A stretch of 24,461 nt of DNA from Methanobacteriota archaeon (GTDB taxonomy: Archaea; Thermoplasmatota; E2; DHVEG-1). Location of the stretch: NCBI GenBank assembly GCA_903930505.1, contig CAIYYQ010000404.1, forward strand, positions 1 through 24,461. The letters are read 5' to 3'. Below are positions 4,029 to 14,051 of this stretch, one piece after another. The notes beneath the pieces were generated by a model, which saw only the letters and a program-made list of their open reading frames with translations, did not search any database and was not told where the DNA came from. A program made the translations under genes and the position numbers. How positions within the stretch are numbered: position 1 is the stretch's first letter; every line of letters begins with the position of its first letter.

Positions 4029-7000
4029 ATGATGATGAATGCCATATCAAAAAGAAGTAAAACAATGATCGGTTGTCTGTTTGCGATCGCTATTCTTCTG
4101 GTAACAACAATACCGCAGACTGTGATTGTAAACGCGTGTAATTATCTCTCTGAAAAATCTGCAGAGAACAATGAAAAACAGGATACTCATTCTCAAGATA
4201 AAGAAATCGCTGTTCCTCTTATTCCTCAAAATGACGTGATGAAAGAAAATACTCCTGTGGATACCTCAAATGTGGTATCAAATGAGAAGCTTGTTGAATC
4301 GATAAAAGCAAAATATTTACAAAAAAACATTGGAAATGCCGGGTCGTTAACTCAGATTTCCCCCGGTCTCTCTAAGAATGTGTTAGTAAATCAAGTTGAA
4401 GAAATACCTAAAATGATTGAATCAGGAGGTAGTTCGACTGGATATGTTGATCTTGATGTTGATTCTGATAATGATCAAGGGATATCGTTTCCTACACGGA
4501 ACGCGACAGAAGATGCAATGGAAAATAACCCTTCTCCTTATCCTGGAAAATACATCATCCTCAACGATGACGACGATAACAAGGATCGGATGATCGATCT
4601 AAATGATAAGGGTCCTACGAAGAATGAAAATGAACTTGTCCCATTGGTTCTGGAAATTAATGTATCAAATAAACATAATGGCGATATTATTAATTTTGAG
4701 TTTGATGGCATTACTACAGATAATTTCCGTATTTGGAAAAATAAAACAAGAGGTAATTGGTCGAGCGATGGTTCAGGAGATAATATTGTTCAATACGTTC
4801 AACCCGGTCAAGAAAAAATCTATCAATATACTATTTTGCGTCTCGGCGACGTCAACAACGACAGCGTAGTAAGCTTTGCAGACATTGACCCGTTTGTCGC
4901 AGCAATTGGAATAAACGAAACAAACGAACTACGATTACAATTCCAAGCGAAACACCCCACCTGGTCTTGGCGTGCTGCAGACATCAACCAGGATGGTTCA
5001 GTCACCTTCGCAGATATTGACCCGTTCGTCGCGCATATAGGGAATAATGCACCGGTTGCTCTGGTTTTATGGATTGAAGGAATAAAACCATCTGATTATT
5101 ATACAATTACTGTTCGAGCAGATCTTAACAATAACGGTGATTTTGATGATGATGGTCCTAATTCCATAGATTCAGTAAAGATTACAGTCGCAGGTAGCTG
5201 CTCAGAAGGAGGGATATTTGGCGTCCCAAAGGGATATAATGGTAATGATCCTCAGTTTATGTCTCGTGGATGGTTCCTGGAAAGTAATTTGCTGTATTGT
5301 GGGAGAAGTTGGTATCCTGGCGGTGCAGGTTTTCCTCTTCAAATATCGTTACTTACTGGTTTCGGCCCAGGTGATTTCCCACCAACAAAAACCGACCCGC
5401 AACAAAGTACAGCACCATTGGTATCAAAAGAAACAGGGTATTTTGGGCGTCCCAATCCACCGATCGAACGTCCAACACACAATGATATTATCGATATGAT
5501 TACCGGCACGCCGCTTCTCCAAGAGACTGACTTTGAGCTTCCCTTTGGTGGCGCGGTTTTCCGTCATACGAGAACCTATTCAGAAAATATTGTTGATTCT
5601 TTAAAAAATCGTTATGGAACTGAAGCGATTTATGAACAAGACTCATGTGCAGGTGAAGATACGTTTTGGGATTGGAACGGAAAATACTGGATGATGAGTG
5701 AAAACCCAATTCTCCTCATCGATGCAACCTACAAAGATCTTGTGACACCGGCAGAAGCCGCAGCAGGAATAAAACGATGTTATTTCATCCCTGATGCACA
5801 TCATGCAATTCCATTTACACTCGATCCAAACATACGCGATGAAAATAACAATCCTGTTTATACAGCTCCGGATTGGTTCGATGCAATCATGACGTATTCT
5901 GGTGGAATATGGGATGATAATAAGACGGAATGGAAGGATTGGGCTGTTCATCCCACGGAGTACTATATCTGGTTAAATCACAATTCGATTAAATATACCT
6001 TTAAACCACAATATGAGGACGTATGGTTTGATCGAGATACAAATCCAAATCATAGTTATCCATATAGTTGGATTGATGCTCACGTGCCTCCTCCCGATTA
6101 CTCTTTTATATATCCCCCACCTGCACCGTATTCTACTTGGGATAGCGGCTATGGGGTCCCTTTTTATGGGTTAGTAACGAATATTTCCGACCAACATGGC
6201 AACCGGATGCAGTACGACTATTGTACTGTGCATCAATATCCATCTCCCCAGGATACTAATCCAAACGATGATTTCATTGAATGCCTTCAAAATACGAATG
6301 AAAAAGGACAGATCAAAGACATTAAACTTATCGATGGAAATGGAACCGTTGTTTGGACAATTCTATATTCCTACCGTGCTTTTGCCACGGGTGACAGAGA
6401 TTTCTATCCCGGCCCATCATGGCCTGATTCTCCTGGGAACAACGAGGCGTTCCTCGTCCATAAATTACATTCTATTCATGTTTACAATGGTAACATTCCT
6501 GCTAACGTGTTAAATGACTTTGTTTCAACTATTGGGTACTTTGGAAATTTCTCTGATCTAACCTCTTTCGATGCTTATGATCAAATCGAGAACCCATCAA
6601 TATCTACTGTGGAATCAAGAGCAGGGAATCATTGGGTTATTCGAGTGAATTATACCTATGAGGAAGCCCAACCATATTATTCATATCAAAATCCATGGTG
6701 CTATGACGGACCTACTAATTGGTATTCCGCTGCGGATCCAAACTCTCAATATTATAAATATTACATAAATTGTACGACTACTACTCCTTCATCCAAGGAT
6801 GTTATGGGATGTAATTTGTTAAAGACTACGATATCAAAAAAGACGCATGATAATCTTGCAAACGAGATTATCCAAACATCCCATACTATTTATCGATATG
6901 ATAATACACTTGGCCCAAGTGCTCATTTAACATTTTATGATGATACACATGGGTTGAAAGCAGTATTTTACGATTCTACTATTCAAAAAATCGTTGAAGA

Positions 7001-10000
7001 ATATAAACAGCGCCATCCGGGTGTTTCTGTAAATGAAAATATTCTATTCACACTCTCTGATAATTGTATTCTTATCCCCGATGATCCTTCAACTTCATTT
7101 GACGAATCGCAAACGCTTCTTCAGGCCTCTGATGTTTATATGACGACTGATGTTCGTTTTCCAGGTAATAGCTGGAGTGACCCTTTAGATTCTCCATATA
7201 CTGATCTTGTGAATTTCATTGGTACTGACCCAGCAAAAACTTCTAGTTCTGCATATGAAAAAACAAGTATGGTTGATCATCGTGCTGGTAGAAATGACGG
7301 GGGAACTTTTTACTATTATAACTTCAAAATATATCCACGTCCATTGTATGTCTATGAACCTCAATTCGGTAATGCTGTAGTAGATATTGTTTCAAGATAT
7401 CAATGGTTGAGTGAAGTCCATTATCCCTATCGTTATATGGTTCAATTAAATATAAATTTACCATATCATCCCGACACGATTGGTCCTACTGAAAATACTG
7501 GTTTACCTTTTGATCAACCGTTCCGTATCATGGTGATCGACGAGGTTGATACGACATCAGGTATCACATATGATGCTGCGTTGCAGACAGGGATTAAAAC
7601 ACGTCGCGTCGTCAGGATGAACCCGACCGGTTTTGTCCTGGAGGATGAAACATGGACGTATAACGGCACTGGCGCGCAAATGACGAGTCATATGGGATAT
7701 TCAGAGCACAGACTCTACAACGACAAAGGGCAACTTCTTCAACTTCGCAGTGCAGGTTGGGCAACCGATGAAAATCTTATGTGGAATGGCCCGGACTGGA
7801 AACTTACCCATGGATTTGTATGTAATTATACATATTATGATGATTATTTTAAAACAGTGATGGTGTGGGGTAAGTTTGGATTAGAACCGAAAATAATCCG
7901 AGTCCCTGGAAAGTTAAAATCAGAAGGAGTTCAATCAGGAGACGGCTCAGAGCAACCAGTGTATGTGCAGAAACTCTATGACCGAGATGTGAACAATCAA
8001 GAATATGTAAACAGAACAATACAATTCCCAACGCCGGTTCTTTGTTCGTCAGATCTGTTTTTAGCAAACGGGCGTATCAATATATCAAAAGTAAAGGAGC
8101 TTGGTGGAGAAATCACTGAGGAACAAATTACGTTTAGAGATAATGATTCTGATAAAGGTATTCTCAGTCAAACAGAGATCAAACCGCCAACGCCTCTCTC
8201 CGCTGATAACAACGACCTGTATTTTGGAGTGGATAAGATCCAGAATGATAACAATGGAAATATGATTTTACATGGATATGGTAGCCTTAAAAATATTAGT
8301 ATTCCTGGAACCGGTGTTCTCGATCAGTTCTTTGTTGATTATAATCAGTATGATATATACGGGCAGCCAATCTTGCAAGTCCAGGATGCAAACCCGAGTA
8401 ACTATCCTGATTTTCCTGTAGGTTGGGTGAGGGTACCTGCGAATGGTGCTTTGGATCTAACAACGCGATATGAGTATGATCTTGTCTATGGTCTTAAAAG
8501 GGTGATATATCCAACAGGTTTAGAGACATGGATTGTATATAATCAACCATCCTCTTATATTTTAGAACGATGGACATATAATAATGTCGACTTGAATAAG
8601 GCTAAGGTTGGATCTCCTGTTCAAATCAATATTTATATCAACGGGACCTTGAATTGTACGAAGCTTGTTCATCTGAATATACCTGGTGGATGGAGCTCTC
8701 CTACAGGTGATGAACCGTATGAGATCTTATCGATATCCGTGCCAGGATACGATACCAATGGACGGGTTACTGATGTGAAAACACAGGGAAAGAATGGGGA
8801 GACAGTATCTTCTAAAGTCTCATATCATGCGACTGGCCAGGTTGCTCGTGAGCAAACACCTGATGGAACGATTAAGCGGTATACCTATACGATGCGTGGG
8901 TATCTGGAACGAACCTATCAGGGGATGAATGATATTCATCCGTTCTGGGGCACGGCATGTCCACCGGTATTTGATTGTGGGTATTGTCAGGGGAATCCAT
9001 TGATATGCACCTATCCAGATACGATGACTCTTATCGAGAAACGATATTACGGAAATAAGACAACAGACGCCGGAAAACTCATTACGGTTCGGACGTATAC
9101 AGATAAACCGTTGAACCAGTATTTCGAAGTTGACAGCAGCGGTAATCCTGTTCCTGCGCCGAATAATGAAGACGAAATCGGGTCGGTGACGAATTATTCA
9201 TATGATTGGCGGATGCGACAGGTTTCTACCCAGTATAAAAATGAAACCGGTGTTCCATTAAAGTATGAGGTTGTCTGGTTGGATAATCTCGGTCGGAAAA
9301 TCCTTGAGGCAGAGTATGGTCCTGAGATGAACATCCCTGTGCAGATACAGCCGTGGAATCTGTCTCCGGGGTGGAATCTCACCATGCAAAATATTACTGA
9401 TATTCTCTCAGTTTCATTAAATCAAAAGCCGTTGTCATTGACCCAGACGATATATAACGCCCGTGGCCAAACTGAGGAGACACGTCGGTATAACGTAAGC
9501 GATTCCAGTGGTTTGTCGTATCTCTCTGATCAAACATTCTATGATAATAATGGGAAGACGGTTGAACAGCGTTCCTCCAATGGTGCGGTAACGAAAACCA
9601 TATATGATTCCAAGGGACGGCAGATCAGCAGTAGTTCCTGGGTGAATGTAAGCAGTGGCTGGACAGAGATCACGAGAACGAATATGACGTATAATAGTCG
9701 TGATCAAGTGATTAAAACCGTCAGTTGGGAACGCAAACACAATGCTCTAGTTTCCGATCGTGTTCTCACCGTTAGTAACAGTGTAAAAACCTATAGTTAC
9801 ACCTGGTATGATACAGCCGGGAAGGTCAGCTGTTCCGCGGAATATGGGACAAACAACGCACAAGGGTATATCACTGGTAATGATCCGTATCCTGATTGCC
9901 CTGAGGGGAATTATCCTCTAGATCCTCCTCAAGTTTTTCCTGCTGGTGTGTTGGTTACTCGCCATGGATACAACAATGCTAGTGTGGAGAATGCAACGTA

Positions 10001-13000
10001 TCAGCCTGATGGGACGGTGACCAGGACTGAATATGATGGCCTTGGTCGGCAAATCCTTGTAACGGAGAACGCTGATGATTCCAATGTGAACATGAGACGT
10101 TCGACTGCGTATTTCTATGATAATAAAACCGGTCAACTGCAGAAGATGGCAGCGGTGCTCCCTAATCATAATGGAACGGATGGGCTGCCCGGTCTTGCAA
10201 ACTGGAGTGATATCAACTGGAGTGCGACTAATGGTTCGTTGCAGGTCACGGAGATGGTGTATGGCGCTGATGTGGTTGAGAAAAACAATAAAGTATTGAC
10301 GTTTGATGGGAAAAATGATTATGTGGAAATCCCGAATTCGAATGCGATGTTACAACAATGTAGTAGTGGTTTTTCTGATGGTTCTTTCGCATTTATGATT
10401 TCAGTGTGGTTTAAAACCGATGATCCTCTTCGCGAGCAATCTATTGTTAATATGGGGTGTGATAAACTAGGGTCTGAATCTGGATGGAGAGTATTCCTAA
10501 AAGACGGTAAAGTTAACTTTACAGCGAAAGAAAATAATGACTGTACAGTATTTATGGATACACCATTAAATAACCCATCCTCATGGCATCATGTGGCTAT
10601 AATATATTATGCGATGAGTTGGAGTTATTATAGAGAAGCCCTGTACCTTGATGGCGTATTAAAGAATTGGTCTCGGTGGCCATATCCTCGTCCTAGTGCA
10701 CCCGTTGTTTTTTTGCATGGTGAGAATGTTACTATAGGACGTATGGCATATGTACCATCTGATGGTTCTGGAAAGTTCTTTATTGGTCAGATCAAGGAAG
10801 TCAGTGTATACAACATTTCTGATAATAGCGCACCCGAAACTCAATGGTTTTGGCAGACTTCTGAATCTGATATAGTCGCTTCATTATATAAAAATGGAGG
10901 TTATTCATCCGTTGTAGAGAATGCTACGATGTATTGGAAGATGAACGAAGGCAGTGGTTATCAGATTATTGATTCTAAAGGTCTTCGCAATGGGTTCGTT
11001 CATAGTGCATCTTGGATGGGGCAGTATGTGAATACGAACGGTGCGTTGATTAAAGAGGTCAGGTACCCCAATAATGTTACAGGACAGCCTGATGTGAATG
11101 ATTCGTTGAAATTTAGGTATTATTTCAACGGTGCGGTTGCATCACGAACTGATTCAAAAGGAGTAATATATCGATATTCGTACGATGAACTTGGGCGGAT
11201 GGTAGAAACCCTGGTTGATGATTCATATTACTATGACCCTAATGGGTCAGGGGTTGAACCGATTTTTGTCCCTCAACAACGTATCAGTAGAATTAATTAC
11301 TCGTATACCCCGGATGGTTCGCTTTCTTTGGTTACTGCGTTTAATCGAACTGGTACGGTTGTTTCTCAGGATAGGTTTGAGTATGATGTGGGAATGCGAA
11401 ATCTGGTGAAGGAGCAGCAGGCGCATGGAGGAAATGTCACTGGTACTACTCCTGCGGTCACGTACGGCTGGGAGTTTAACTCTACGACAGGTGGTGGGAA
11501 TTTCAACAGGTTGCGGAATATCACCTATCCTGGTGGTCGTATTGTTGGTTTCTGTTATGATGGTGGAAGTGGTTTGGATACGCTGTTGAGTCGCGTGTCG
11601 CGTATCACAGATTCCGTTTTAGGTATTACGGTAGCGAATTACACGTATGCGGGGTTGTCTCGCCGGGTGAATACCACTTTTGGAAATGGAATGACTCAAA
11701 AAATCTTTGATGACAGTGGATTGTATACTGGTCTTGATCGGTTCGGCCGGGTCACTAATCTTAACTTCACCAAAGACGGTACTATCATCCAGCGGTATCA
11801 GTATGGGTATGATGCCGCAGGGAATCGGCTGTACTCTAATGTGACCCAACTCAATCATGTGAATGATCGTTCTTTCCTTTATCAGTATGATGCGTTGAAT
11901 CGTCTTGTTAACGCGAGTATGGGTAAGTTGAATGCAATGAATACACAAATTATTCAAAACCAGGGTGTTCCCTCGCAGAACGTTTCCTGGCGTCTAGATA
12001 ATCTGGGTAACTGGGCTGGCGGTACAACTGCTGATGGAAGTCGGATACAAAAGAACGATACAAACGGTGATGGAACTTATGAACTAACATATGCGATTCA
12101 TCATGATGTGAATAAAGCGAATCAAATAACCAAGATTTACACAAATGGTGTCCCCCCTGGTGTTCAGGTTGTGTATGATCGTGCAGGAAACCTTGTCTAC
12201 GATGGACAGTATTTCTATCAGTATGATGGATTCAACCGGCTGGTACAGGTGAATTATTCTGGTATTGCTTTATTAGCAAGTGATTTTGATGGAGATGGAC
12301 GTATTAATTTGAGTCATGGTCATCTGCCAGCGAGTCTGGTTGCTCGGTATATTTATGATGGTCTTGGCAGATTAATTCGTAAAGAGACGCCACCATCATT
12401 ATATGAGGATTACTATTATGATGGTGTCCGTCGACTTCAAGAAGTACGGCAGGGCACGCAACTTTATCGCGAGTATGTGTATGGTCCTGATTCTGTTGAT
12501 GAGTTTATCCTTCAGTTAGATGAAAGCCATAATCCATTCTACGTGGTGCAGGATGCCAACTACAATGTGATGGCGCTTGTTGATGCTGGCGGGAGTGTCA
12601 AAGTTCAATATCAATATGATCCATATGGGACACTTGTTGCAATGGATACCTTCTCAGGTGCTCCAATCAACAAGGTTGGTCATCAGGGGTTGTTCTTTGA
12701 GAACTTCTCTAACGGCGGTATCGGTCTCAACACAGCAGGTTTGTATTACAATCGGAACCGCTGGTACAGTCCCACATTAGGAAGATTCCTCCAGCGTGAT
12801 CCAAACGAAGCTGCACAGCCGATTATGACTGCGTGTGTGATGAATGGGGATATCCTCCAATTAACTATGCACATGTACAGTTTGCAAGGGCAGTACAGTG
12901 ATGGAATGAACCTGTATAATTATTTAGGTTCAAATCCAGTGAATCATGTTGATCCTTCTGGGTTGTGGAAAGGTAGTGGTCATAAATCTTTAACGGTACC

Positions 13001-13568
13001 TGCTATGAAAGCAAAAGGATTTTCCTCTCAAGAGATAGAAAAAGCTGTATCCGCGGATATTGCTGTAGATTCACCAACCGGTGAAGGATTTGTTCATTAT
13101 GCTCATTATGAGTCTGGGTGCGATAGCAAAAAAGCTGAAGACCGTATTAGTTATTTTATACTGATTGCTGCCAAAAAATCATTAATAGGTGATGAGGACG
13201 GCGCCATGAGTTATTTAGGTAGAGCGCTTCATACCGCTCAGGATAAGGGCGCGCATTGGGATGCTGGTGTTGGAGGTTTTCTTGATCATGGTGTAAAAAT
13301 GGGCAAAAGTCTTTTTACGTTTTGTCCAGATGATCCTAATGATAATCCAACGGGCTATGCTAAGTCCATTCAGTACACTAATAATTTGTTAAATAGGTAT
13401 GCTAATGAAAAATCCAATTTTAAGGCAAACAACCCAGGTATACAACGTCTTGCTGCTGCCGCTCAGAAAGCAGGAGGAATTGGTGGAGCAATATTGGCAA
13501 TATTAAATTATGCTGATGCTCTTGAGGAGACAATGGCGGATATCGATGCAAATTGGGGTAACGGGTGA
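4029..13568 (+). CDS. Giant secreted RHS/YD-repeat protein with LamG insert and PLC/P1-nuclease-like C-terminal tip
   Basis: The 3179-residue protein has these parts in order. A signal peptide: basic KRSK, then a hydrophobic stretch ending near residue 36. An Asp-rich linker (about 140-200). Two dockerin-like calcium loops with FADIDPFVA signatures (274-293, 318-334). A DUF6531-type pre-RHS segment (about 488-520). Many YD repeats, for example YDELGR (Tyr2385) and YDALNR (Tyr2618). A LamG-like domain (2089-2332) set into the repeats. The RHS core with GLYYNRNRWYSPTLGRF (from 2904), Asp2924 and DPSGLW (2975-2980). A 199-residue tip. In characterised relatives the RHS shell encloses the tip and cuts after DPxGL. 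Tip residues W2980, H2985, D3010, H3023, H3068, D3072 and H3087 fit the zinc PLC/P1 nuclease pattern. It stands between housekeeping genes, looks mosaic, and is probably bacterial in origin (inference). An antagonistic toxin is likely; a surface adhesin is possible. The start is ATG 4029, 4032 or 4035, after GGAGTGA. Confidence 0.9.
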   Translation: MMMNAISKRSKTMIGCLFAIAILLVTTIPQTVIVNACNYLSEKSAENNEKQDTHSQDKEIAVPLIPQNDVMKENTPVDTSNVVSNEKLVESIKAKYLQKNIGNAGSLTQISPGLSKNVLVNQVEEIPKMIESGGSSTGYVDLDVDSDNDQGISFPTRNATEDAMENNPSPYPGKYIILNDDDDNKDRMIDLNDKGPTKNENELVPLVLEINVSNKHNGDIINFEFDGITTDNFRIWKNKTRGNWSSDGSGDNIVQYVQPGQEKIYQYTILRLGDVNNDSVVSFADIDPFVAAIGINETNELRLQFQAKHPTWSWRAADINQDGSVTFADIDPFVAHIGNNAPVALVLWIEGIKPSDYYTITVRADLNNNGDFDDDGPNSIDSVKITVAGSCSEGGIFGVPKGYNGNDPQFMSRGWFLESNLLYCGRSWYPGGAGFPLQISLLTGFGPGDFPPTKTDPQQSTAPLVSKETGYFGRPNPPIERPTHNDIIDMITGTPLLQETDFELPFGGAVFRHTRTYSENIVDSLKNRYGTEAIYEQDSCAGEDTFWDWNGKYWMMSENPILLIDATYKDLVTPAEAAAGIKRCYFIPDAHHAIPFTLDPNIRDENNNPVYTAPDWFDAIMTYSGGIWDDNKTEWKDWAVHPTEYYIWLNHNSIKYTFKPQYEDVWFDRDTNPNHSYPYSWIDAHVPPPDYSFIYPPPAPYSTWDSGYGVPFYGLVTNISDQHGNRMQYDYCTVHQYPSPQDTNPNDDFIECLQNTNEKGQIKDIKLIDGNGTVVWTILYSYRAFATGDRDFYPGPSWPDSPGNNEAFLVHKLHSIHVYNGNIPANVLNDFVSTIGYFGNFSDLTSFDAYDQIENPSISTVESRAGNHWVIRVNYTYEEAQPYYSYQNPWCYDGPTNWYSAADPNSQYYKYYINCTTTTPSSKDVMGCNLLKTTISKKTHDNLANEIIQTSHTIYRYDNTLGPSAHLTFYDDTHGLKAVFYDSTIQKIVEEYKQRHPGVSVNENILFTLSDNCILIPDDPSTSFDESQTLLQASDVYMTTDVRFPGNSWSDPLDSPYTDLVNFIGTDPAKTSSSAYEKTSMVDHRAGRNDGGTFYYYNFKIYPRPLYVYEPQFGNAVVDIVSRYQWLSEVHYPYRYMVQLNINLPYHPDTIGPTENTGLPFDQPFRIMVIDEVDTTSGITYDAALQTGIKTRRVVRMNPTGFVLEDETWTYNGTGAQMTSHMGYSEHRLYNDKGQLLQLRSAGWATDENLMWNGPDWKLTHGFVCNYTYYDDYFKTVMVWGKFGLEPKIIRVPGKLKSEGVQSGDGSEQPVYVQKLYDRDVNNQEYVNRTIQFPTPVLCSSDLFLANGRINISKVKELGGEITEEQITFRDNDSDKGILSQTEIKPPTPLSADNNDLYFGVDKIQNDNNGNMILHGYGSLKNISIPGTGVLDQFFVDYNQYDIYGQPILQVQDANPSNYPDFPVGWVRVPANGALDLTTRYEYDLVYGLKRVIYPTGLETWIVYNQPSSYILERWTYNNVDLNKAKVGSPVQINIYINGTLNCTKLVHLNIPGGWSSPTGDEPYEILSISVPGYDTNGRVTDVKTQGKNGETVSSKVSYHATGQVAREQTPDGTIKRYTYTMRGYLERTYQGMNDIHPFWGTACPPVFDCGYCQGNPLICTYPDTMTLIEKRYYGNKTTDAGKLITVRTYTDKPLNQYFEVDSSGNPVPAPNNEDEIGSVTNYSYDWRMRQVSTQYKNETGVPLKYEVVWLDNLGRKILEAEYGPEMNIPVQIQPWNLSPGWNLTMQNITDILSVSLNQKPLSLTQTIYNARGQTEETRRYNVSDSSGLSYLSDQTFYDNNGKTVEQRSSNGAVTKTIYDSKGRQISSSSWVNVSSGWTEITRTNMTYNSRDQVIKTVSWERKHNALVSDRVLTVSNSVKTYSYTWYDTAGKVSCSAEYGTNNAQGYITGNDPYPDCPEGNYPLDPPQVFPAGVLVTRHGYNNASVENATYQPDGTVTRTEYDGLGRQILVTENADDSNVNMRRSTAYFYDNKTGQLQKMAAVLPNHNGTDGLPGLANWSDINWSATNGSLQVTEMVYGADVVEKNNKVLTFDGKNDYVEIPNSNAMLQQCSSGFSDGSFAFMISVWFKTDDPLREQSIVNMGCDKLGSESGWRVFLKDGKVNFTAKENNDCTVFMDTPLNNPSSWHHVAIIYYAMSWSYYREALYLDGVLKNWSRWPYPRPSAPVVFLHGENVTIGRMAYVPSDGSGKFFIGQIKEVSVYNISDNSAPETQWFWQTSESDIVASLYKNGGYSSVVENATMYWKMNEGSGYQIIDSKGLRNGFVHSASWMGQYVNTNGALIKEVRYPNNVTGQPDVNDSLKFRYYFNGAVASRTDSKGVIYRYSYDELGRMVETLVDDSYYYDPNGSGVEPIFVPQQRISRINYSYTPDGSLSLVTAFNRTGTVVSQDRFEYDVGMRNLVKEQQAHGGNVTGTTPAVTYGWEFNSTTGGGNFNRLRNITYPGGRIVGFCYDGGSGLDTLLSRVSRITDSVLGITVANYTYAGLSRRVNTTFGNGMTQKIFDDSGLYTGLDRFGRVTNLNFTKDGTIIQRYQYGYDAAGNRLYSNVTQLNHVNDRSFLYQYDALNRLVNASMGKLNAMNTQIIQNQGVPSQNVSWRLDNLGNWAGGTTADGSRIQKNDTNGDGTYELTYAIHHDVNKANQITKIYTNGVPPGVQVVYDRAGNLVYDGQYFYQYDGFNRLVQVNYSGIALLASDFDGDGRINLSHGHLPASLVARYIYDGLGRLIRKETPPSLYEDYYYDGVRRLQEVRQGTQLYREYVYGPDSVDEFILQLDESHNPFYVVQDANYNVMALVDAGGSVKVQYQYDPYGTLVAMDTFSGAPINKVGHQGLFFENFSNGGIGLNTAGLYYNRNRWYSPTLGRFLQRDPNEAAQPIMTACVMNGDILQLTMHMYSLQGQYSDGMNLYNYLGSNPVNHVDPSGLWKGSGHKSLTVPAMKAKGFSSQEIEKAVSADIAVDSPTGEGFVHYAHYESGCDSKKAEDRISYFILIAAKKSLIGDEDGAMSYLGRALHTAQDKGAHWDAGVGGFLDHGVKMGKSLFTFCPDDPNDNPTGYAKSIQYTNNLLNRYANEKSNFKANNPGIQRLAAAAQKAGGIGGAILAILNYADALEETMADIDANWGNG
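4845..5043 (+). other. Duplicated dockerin-like calcium-binding module within the RHS protein
   Basis: Two calcium-loop units occur about 45 residues apart. The first is DVNNDSVVSFADIDPFVAAI, with ligand positions D274, N276, D278 and D285. The second is DINQDGSVTFADIDPFVAHI, with D318, N320, D322 and D329. The pattern (DxNxDGxVxxxD followed by a hydrophobic helix) is that of type I dockerin repeats. The first copy has Ser where the loop Gly is usual. The DNA is also repeated, with GCAGAYATTGACCCGTTYGT in both copies. Such modules fold with calcium and can mediate cell-surface or cohesin attachment; no cohesin gene is visible here. Confidence 0.7.
10293..11024 (+). other. LamG/concanavalin-like domain inserted in the RHS repeats
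   Basis: Residues 2089-2332 break the YD-repeat pattern. They begin LTFDGKNDYVEIPNS, then show ISVWFKT, WHHVAIIYY, ALYLDGVL, VTIGRM and IGQIKEVSVYN, the usual strand order of LamG-type jelly-roll domains. These domains bind glycans or proteins. After it, residues 2301-2325 (YWKMNEGSG...DSKG...SASW) look like the opening segment of a second LamG that never continues. The flanks read like one uninterrupted RHS segment if the insert is removed. Confidence 0.65.
12951..13568 (+). other. RHS cleavage motif and C-terminal zinc PLC/P1-nuclease-like tip domain
   Basis: The RHS core ends with D2975-P-S-G-L-W2980 and the variable tip follows. The tip shows W2980-KGSG-H2985, D3010 in ADIAVD, H3023 (and H3026) in VHYAHYE, YLGRALHTAQD with H3068 and D3072 in an HxxxD pair, H3076, and H3087 in FLDHG. 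In Bacillus cereus PLC the ligands are W1, H14, D55, H69, H118, D122, H128, H142 and E146; in P1 nuclease they begin W1, H6, D45, H60. Spacings here agree well: D to H is 13, H to HxxxD is 45. Two features do not fit: the His after HxxxD is at +4 instead of +6, and no acid lies four residues after H3087. The substrate (phospholipid head group or nucleic acid) cannot be read from sequence. Confidence 0.6.
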
Positions 13569-14051
13569 TGATTTAAGATAATTTTCCGTTTACTCACATC
13601 TGCTCTTTTTCCTCTTTCATTTCCTCGATCAATATATCATCTTTCACCAACCAACCATCAACCCATCATCAACCATTGTACGTTTTTCAGCATCTCCAAC
13701 CAAATTAAAAAACCCGCAAAACCCGGTATTTCCCATCGCTGTCACCTGAAACACCCTTCGTTGACCAAAAAAACAGGCTCTCTCTTAACCCTTGCTTTCC
13801 AGAAGAAAAACAGTTCCCATCTCTGTCACTTTTAGATTTCTCAACTGTGTCACCTGAAACAGGCCTCGTTGATTTCCCACCCTCCAAGAAAAATTCCCAT
13901 CTGTGTCACCTGGGATTTCCCGTCTTTGTGACAACGTGCTCCCCCAATTTTTATCACGTAATGCCCTTTGTCAGTCATTTTACTTATTCATCGCTACAAT
14001 GCTTTAAAAAATGCTAACCTTCTTTAAAGAGGAAAGCATATCTTTTATCCA
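13569..14051 (+). other. Intergenic region after the RHS gene, with low-complexity and repeat content
   Basis: No convincing gene is present in these 483 bases on either strand. The first part is pyrimidine-rich and includes a low-complexity CCAAC/ATCA stretch (about 13645-13676). A degenerate repeat array follows (13728-13935, listed separately). The last about 110 bases are an ordinary AT-rich upstream region for arcS, with CTTTAAAG at 14022-14029 as a possible TATA box 26 bases before its ATG. The position directly after an RHS tip is where an immunity gene would be expected, and none is seen. Confidence 0.6.
13728..13935 (+). repeat. Degenerate direct repeats, TTCCCATCTSTGTCACCTG-type unit
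   Basis: At least five related segments occur in about 200 bases: TTTCCCATCGCTGTCACCTG at 13729-13748 (continuing AAACACCCTTCGTTGA), TTCCCATCTCTGTCAC at 13814-13829, a copy at 13836-13872 with TGTGTCACCTGAAACAG then GCCTCGTTGA, ATTCCCATCTGTGTCACCTG at 13893-13912, and ATTTCCCGTCTTTGTGAC at 13915-13932. The block GTCACCTGAAACA is identical at 13741 and 13849. Spacing is irregular (84, 24 and 56 between GTCAC positions), so this is not a CRISPR array. I do not recognise the repeat family. Confidence 0.6.

Follow-up and report, generated by a model that had tools for sequence, protein, structure and literature searches.

The question raised by this locus is whether the self-cleavage of an RHS protein, besides releasing its C-terminal tip, could also create the N-terminal residue by which that tip would bind metal. 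The window (i.e., the whole stretch of DNA analyzed here, 24,461 nucleotides in length) is archaeal chromosome. Upstream of the RHS gene, the archaeal models for glutamyl-tRNA synthetase and for isopentenyl phosphate kinase are matched above their cut-offs and purH is also present, and downstream of it lies a protein with TGT, DUF5591, and PUA domains (Pfam), which we take to be ArcS.

The RHS Protein and Its Predicted Cleavage Site

The gene for the RHS protein (4029..13568, + strand) encodes 3179 aa and has no internal stop codons. The protein matches RHS_repeat (PF05593) with an E value of 2.8e-13, and its RHS core is called by TIGR03696 with 45.9 bits (cut-off 32.5). The N-terminus consists of a hydrophobic, signal-like stretch, as judged by eye, and residues 272–330 (4842..5018, + strand) form dockerin-like repeats, for which the match to PF00404 (E 0.016) is under the cut-off. 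A LamG-like stretch (FDGKNDYVEI...) was also recognized by eye, and on aligning the protein with P0004, at window positions 10300–10700 (residues about 2090–2230); Pfam made no call for it at E ≤ 5.

The loci found via the RHS core number 13, viz. seven from Planctomycetota, five from sphingomonads, and one from an unclassified bacterium. A sister RHS protein, P0004 (2629 aa, JGI), aligns with much of the window shell, and the clear similarity between them ends directly past DPNGL, which is a hallmark of polymorphic toxin tips. This tip swap at the DPxGL boundary between close relatives was seen in one pair, viz. P0004 and the window RHS protein. P0004 has the same core with extra inserts (LamG-type, according to precomputed Pfam annotation) and a different, hydrophobic-looking tip, although the final ~20 residues of the two tips are faintly similar. 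With regard to a possible immunity gene, no ORF that starts at a common codon and reaches 80 aa lies entirely within the 483-bp gap downstream of the RHS gene; the gap contains shorter or Leu-started stretches of up to 93 aa. Within this gap, short repeated strings around ctgtcacctg are seen at window positions 13737–13960.

In RhsA, the catalytic pair consists of D1324 and D1346, and the consensus is PxxxxDPxG followed by W, L, or F, with the map in the available part of that report stopping after the fifth residue (PMC8765631); for Rhs1, the part of the text available states that the change D1338N abolishes its C-terminal cut (PMC8636562). The end of the window RHS core (residues 2901–2979; 12729..12965, + strand) falls within the TIGR03696 match, and the matched core end is 65% identical to that of P0004. 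By comparison with RhsA, D2975 (12951..12953, + strand) of its PxxxxDPxGL motif is the candidate second autoprotease Asp, and from the sequence the upstream Asp is most likely D2924 (12798..12800, + strand), which lies in an RDP motif. The two candidates are separated by 51 residues as compared to 22 in RhsA, because of a loop insertion, NEAAQPIMTACVMNGDILQLTMHMYSLQGQYS (window 12798–12953), and the same insertion is present in P0004 and the Planctomycetota RHS proteins L002 and L007. As D2975 and L2979 fit the cut rule, PxxxxDPxG[W/L/F], W2980 (12966..12968, + strand) is predicted to become residue 1. By analogy with RhsA, we infer that an autoproteolytic cut occurs after L2979 and exposes W2980, the junction being D2975-P-S-G-L2979/W2980-K-G-S-G-H2985 (here and below, the slash marks the predicted cut).

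Residues of the Tip and Its Proposed Relationship to DUF6765

The tip (200 aa; 12966..13565, + strand) is predicted from register, alignment, and profile tests to be a DUF6765/zinc-PLC-like domain. Searches with the tip itself revealed no homolog. In the protein database, a tip-length query (387 candidates) found no homolog of the tip, a full RHS-length query (1051 candidates) found only the protein itself, and a query of middle length (320 candidates) found itself and P0004, the latter sharing the core only. No match to the tip was obtained from plasmids and phages; in genome and viral contigs, 30 and 6 stretches, respectively, contained a pattern match and none was confirmed as a tip homolog; and the PDB sequences yielded two rows, with E values of 0.6 and 2.2. 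A viral pattern scan gave four matches, none of them in the DUF6765-like family. Among 392 Planctomycetota genomes, the tip had a match at E ≤ 1 in 34 (best 0.0235), and the 12 loci fetched from this search were chance or antisense matches, as judged from a scan for HxxxDxxxH. Pfam found no match of the tip to DUF6765 (PF20551), S1/P1 (PF02265), PF00882, or PF07217, and the HMM check against the zinc PLC and S1/P1 families that had been suggested by an earlier sequence-only reading of this DNA hence gave no profile match. A search of seven genomes for PF07217 (Het-C) also found nothing, but it is uninformative because its control was likewise without signal.

The DUF6765 family was chosen on the basis of motif similarity, the families tried being PF07217, PF02265, PF00882, and PF20551. 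DUF6765 proteins begin with Mxx[DE]xH, and most of the S1/P1 and PF00882 proteins examined begin with WxxxxH behind a signal peptide. Residues 1–36 of the tip align with residues 1–36 of DUF6765 without any gap; the in-register score with seven proteins was matched by none of 20000 shuffles, and register 0 was the best of 150. When a weighted profile of columns 1–36 from 16 non-RHS members was run over all 3144 positions of the RHS protein, it peaked at position 2980 with a score of 8.4, the next best being −4.8. This peak at W2980 has a z value of 5.2, was reached in none of 20000 shuffles, and stays at the top when columns 1 and 6 are omitted. A profile of five RHS relatives (described below) also peaks at 2980 (12.5; next −0.1). 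When all six frames of the window were scanned, a stop-rich antisense frame reached 8.5 with the 16-member profile (stops being scored as zero), and W2980 ranked first with the RHS-relative or the joint profile. Two independent rules, viz. the RHS cut rule and the family start profile, therefore name the same residue. Among 18 control tips scored in register with the profile, one came within about 11 bits (−2.3) and the next scored −30.4.

In alignment A2 (8 sequences, with 17–28% identity to the first), the invariant positions are His6, Asp35, a Gly, the His of HF/HY, another Gly, and HxxxDxxxH, and all of the metal-type columns among them (His6, Asp35, the HF/HY His, and HxxxDxxxH) are kept in the tip. 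H2985 (12981..12983, + strand) and D3014 (13068..13070, + strand) correspond to His6 and Asp35, each invariant in the family alignments. H3023 and H3026 of the sequence HYAH (13095..13106, + strand) are aligned as the counterpart of the family HF/HY His, and H3068xxxD3072xxxH3076 (13230..13256, + strand) is the putative metal motif, which is also the HET-C motif in the part of the 2012 survey available (PMC3482391). Further downstream, H3087 (13287..13289, + strand) may be the last metal His by inference from the family GH before PDxP, although the aligner placed it outside the family GH column, and PDDP (13326..13337, + strand) aligns with the family PDxP.

The residues listed in the sequence-only reading, viz. 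W2980, H2985, D3010, H3023, H3068, D3072, and H3087, are all present and constitute positions 1, 6, 31, 44, 89, 93, and 108 of the tip, with H3076 (tip 97) completing HxxxDxxxH. Its assignment of D3010 as a metal ligand has been dropped in favor of D3014, where the family alignments place the conserved acid, and the acid of the metal site is probably D3014. Similarly, the His at +4 after HxxxD, which had been regarded as an oddity, is not odd because HxxxDxxxH is found among DUF6765 members, in L037 and L038 (both PF00882 proteins above the cut-off), and in the published Tox-HET-C motif. In 200000 composition shuffles of the tip, for motifs that were picked after the sequence had been seen, HxxxDxxxH arose in 1.1%, W1 together with H6 in 0.047%, and all three in none. 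Compared with its five RHS relatives, the tip is ~40–130 aa shorter, and it has no clear last acid. A single-sequence AF2 model of it (pLDDT 40) was unusable, the secondary structure being mainly helical at very low confidence.

Over the whole length of the tip, the family HMMs scored 3.3–3.4 bits, which was equalled by 12 and 10 of 2000 shuffles and is not significant; none of the 18 control tips scored as high as the window tip. A local hhalign comparison of the tip with the family was equalled in quality by 13 of 600 shuffles. Because of these whole-length HMM and hhalign results, the tip is referred to here as DUF6765-like and not as a proven member of the family. The S1/P1 family was rejected as a parent of the tip, since its hhalign score was equalled by 208 of 600 shuffles; with 36 columns, the in-register score with S1/P1 peaked at register 0 (9 of 20000 shuffles), whereas with 45 columns the best register was −20 (27 of 20000 shuffles). 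DUF6765 is itself weakly linked to zinc PLC. The hhalign probability for this link is 0.7–3.6%, and the RHS relative L061 matches PF00882 with an E value of 0.044, under the cut-off. The DUF6765-like profile scores 21.0 against a PF00882-type profile on the HxxxDxxxH stretch (none of 200 column-permuted controls was as high, the best being 20.5; hhalign probability 0.7%), and it does worse against S1/P1 alone (15.5).

The Junction in Other RHS Proteins

A DUF6765 profile search of 392 Planctomycetota genomes had matches in at least 63 genomes at E ≤ 0.5 and in at least five over the cut-off. Most of the weak rows listed fall within profile columns 113–141 and are probably unrelated. Of the 30 loci considered, seven were read, three of which are RHS proteins; the other set of 24 loci (L064–L087, with L079 in both sets) was scanned only for RHS core ends, HxxxDxxxH, and long-frame starts. 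The junctions of the three Planctomycetota RHS proteins are DSLGL/FEIDFH (L060), DPSGL/YDEAGH (L061), and DPLGL/YEEDVH (L062). Alignment searches of Pseudomonadota (299 and 349 genomes, overlapping) added L106 (DPTGL/YQEDMH), and a search of 124 genomes in the class of genome G594 added L121 (DPFGL/YGENVH). Two more searches, one covering 9 genomes in the family of G205 and the other 81 genomes in that of G245, brought up no further RHS case, and a scan of 139 loci, whose regex missed L106 and L130, found no further RHS protein with such a tip. Pfam matches to DUF6765 were over the cut-off for L060 (E 2.6e-20), L061 (1.3e-10), and L106 (2.5e-16) and slightly below it for L062 (1.2e-5); L121 was matched by a purpose-built family profile (E 6.4e-14), the Pfam run having covered the other four relatives. 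The stop codon of L060 is overlapped by a 115-aa membrane-type ORF, a candidate immunity gene, followed by another RHS fragment, which may indicate a cassette array.

In all six of these RHS proteins (the five relatives and that in the window), there is no linker after D[PS]xGL, residue 1 is aromatic, and residue 6 is His. As residue 1 is F, Y, Y, Y, Y, and W across the six tips, the earlier view that Trp specifically is needed here does not hold, with Phe or Tyr replacing it in the five relatives. Among 19 other RHS tips, none has His6 and three have an aromatic first residue (Y in L007, W in L138, F in P0004), which for the aromatic residue (6 of 6 versus 3 of 19) gives a Fisher value of 0.0005. 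The 19 control tips comprise 17 core ends identified by regex, L127 by eye, and P0004; in the 25 loci screened for them, no core end was found in L003, L004, L134, L135, and L139, only false matches were found in L006 and L012, and second matches in other loci that proved false were discarded. Another RHS protein, L117 (DPTGF/YDRDVH), was excluded from every count, as the pattern by which it was found demanded an aromatic residue and His6. For linker length, an AHH control yielded three loci.

N-termini of Relatives Without an RHS Shell

The position of His6 was tabulated for 51 proteins, whose maturation was predicted by simple rules, and it was found at this distance from the predicted mature N-terminus in 47 of them. 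The proteins consist of 6 RHS proteins, 23 in which Met is retained, 4 in which it is removed before Pro, 14 of the signal-peptide type, and 4 that do not fit. As scored, the misfits are L059 (HINT-fused), L108 (lipoprotein-like), and L122, which are without an obvious new N-terminus, and L030, which has W1 and H6 but no AxA site. In L059, the DUF6765-like domain lies behind a HINT-like domain and the His6 register is absent. The table includes L036, L039 (assuming a GTG start), L040, and L109; many of its Met-type members are closely related and the fragments L105 and L111 are counted. Same-gene repeats (such as L035, L043, L088–L092, L101, L103, L119, L123, and L124) were left out, as were L056/L057/L099 (the second half of the L111 gene), L045 (short), L118 and another plasmid hit, and L125 and other chance hits.

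Three examples illustrate these routes. In L107, a signal-like stretch is followed by ...VHA/YNEAGH, a start that closely resembles that of L061 and is probably made by signal peptidase. The PF00882 proteins L044, L047, L039, and L040 begin with MP or, where the start is GTG, with VP, and removal of Met before Pro would leave Pro at position 1 and the conserved His at position 6, i.e., in the same register. Lastly, L109, a VWA-type secreted protein from Pseudomonadota that has no RHS, shows by eye a signal-like ESLA/FKQRYH, with an aromatic residue 1 and His6. Its sequence LGRALHTVQDIYSH is nearly the same as LGRALHTAQDKGAH in the tip, while its E value against the purpose-built family profile is only 0.008. 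L109 suggests that domains of the HET-C/VWA7 type share the aromatic-1/His6 rule.

Proposed Mechanism and Alternative Explanations

The sequence-only reading proposed that a PLC/P1-like tip obtains its metal-binding N-terminus through the RHS cut. This proposal is partly supported: comparison speaks strongly for it, in that the profile peaks at W2980, all six RHS junctions agree, and the register is kept in most non-RHS relatives, but the whole-length HMM match is not significant. From these sequence comparisons, we consider it fairly likely that a DUF6765-like metal hydrolase, shortened and divergent, makes up the tip, and that the RHS cut after L2979 both frees it and makes W2980 a metal ligand. 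As a toxin of the zinc PLC/S1-P1 type, the tip would then be carried by a secreted RHS protein of an archaeon. Once the shell has folded, the D2924/D2975 aspartyl autoprotease would cut after L2979 while the shell holds the tip, and the amino group and carbonyl of the new W2980 would join H2985, D3014, H3023 or H3026, H3068, D3072, and H3076 in binding the metal cluster. One cut would have two effects, freeing the tip inside the shell and making residue 1, and as the uncut site would be incomplete, the RHS protein would be its own zymogen. The released tip may hydrolyze a phosphodiester, in either a phospholipid or nucleic acid. In this scheme, the cleavage, fold, metal, and activity of the tip are all predicted.

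A first alternative accepts a DUF6765-like tip but attributes its zero-length junction simply to tip exchange at DPxGL, the new N-terminus being no metal ligand. Tip exchange at this boundary does occur, as P0004 shares the core and diverges past DPNGL, and in three family members (L059, L108, and L122) a new N-terminus is not obvious at the corresponding place. However, mere exchange does not account for relatives without a shell keeping five residues before the His via three other routes to an N-terminus, nor for an aromatic residue 1 in 6 of 6 tips as compared to 3 of 19 other RHS tips. It is also at odds with the need for residue 1 in S1 nuclease and zinc PLC. According to the available part of that report (PMC5201275), the N-terminal main chain of S1 nuclease holds its zinc ions jointly with His and Asp side chains, and in a bacterial PLC every W1 substitution but W1F reduces activity and a single residue added ahead of W1 abolishes it, as described in the accessible text (PMC10576769). 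The tolerance of W1F in PLC fits with Trp, Phe, or Tyr as residue 1 of the RHS tips. On balance, we regard the tip exchange explanation as unlikely. A second alternative, under which an unrelated helical domain forms the tip and its PLC-like residues occur by chance, accords with the lack of a significant whole-length profile match and of homologs and with the motifs having been picked post hoc, but a profile made from other proteins lands exactly on the predicted cut and the metal-type columns coincide, so that this explanation appears quite unlikely. A third alternative sees the tip as a member that has decayed and lost its activity but persists as a structural or adhesive end, in the manner of teneurins. 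This would suit its shortness, the missing clear last acid, the lack of a recognized immunity gene, and the dockerin-like and LamG-like surface features, but is highly improbable given the intact ORF and the retention of the family-invariant positions.

If W2980 becomes a ligand as preferred here, chemistry would explain where the shell is cut in one toxin class, and a producing cell could have a means besides immunity to hold the enzyme inactive. The sequence rule D[PS]xGL followed by an aromatic residue 1 and His6 would serve to locate such tips, and the uncharacterized DUF6765 proteins could be annotated as likely metal hydrolases in which the N-terminus is important. The broader proposal, that there is an RHS toxin class in archaea and bacteria in which the autoprotease performs the last step of active-site assembly in place of signal peptidase or Met processing, with no activity before the cut and with selection for the five-residue spacing, is in our view evenly balanced.

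Comparison with Known Systems

In the literature searched, outside of which lay most subscription papers and preprints, DUF6765 is unnamed and no statement was found that an Rhs cut creates a metal-binding toxin N-terminus. The tip shares with DUF6765 (PF20551) the register to His6, Asp35, the HF/HY-type His, HxxxDxxxH, and PDxP, whereas the members of that family are mostly standalone proteins of about 320–390 aa with Met1 and not Trp1. S1/P1 proteins carry HxxxDxxxxxH, with their last His/acid pair being clear, whereas the tip has HxxxDxxxH and no HxxxD thereafter. In common with PF00882 and S1/P1 (PF02265), most examined members of which have W1xxxxH6 after the signal peptide and also HxxxD (with HxxxDxxxH in L037 and L038), the tip would start with W1 and His6; its WKGSGH, if cut as predicted, corresponds to the mature WxxxGH6 start of S1/P1. 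Tox-HET-C, a polymorphic-toxin relative of PLC/S1-P1 with HxxxDxxxH, differs from it in combining HxD with this motif, where the tip has HYAH in place of HxD and no PF07217 match; in the portion of the 2012 survey available, RHS is absent from the Tox-HET-C table entry (PMC3482391). Lastly, the window protein resembles RhsA of Pseudomonas protegens (PMC8765631) and Photorhabdus Rhs1 (PMC8636562), as far as the available parts of these reports describe them, in its YD shell, PxxxxDPxGL end, two candidate Asp residues, and swapped C-terminal tip. In contrast to them, it is archaeal, has a signal-like N-terminus and a loop between the two Asp residues, and residue 1 of its tip is apparently part of the active site.
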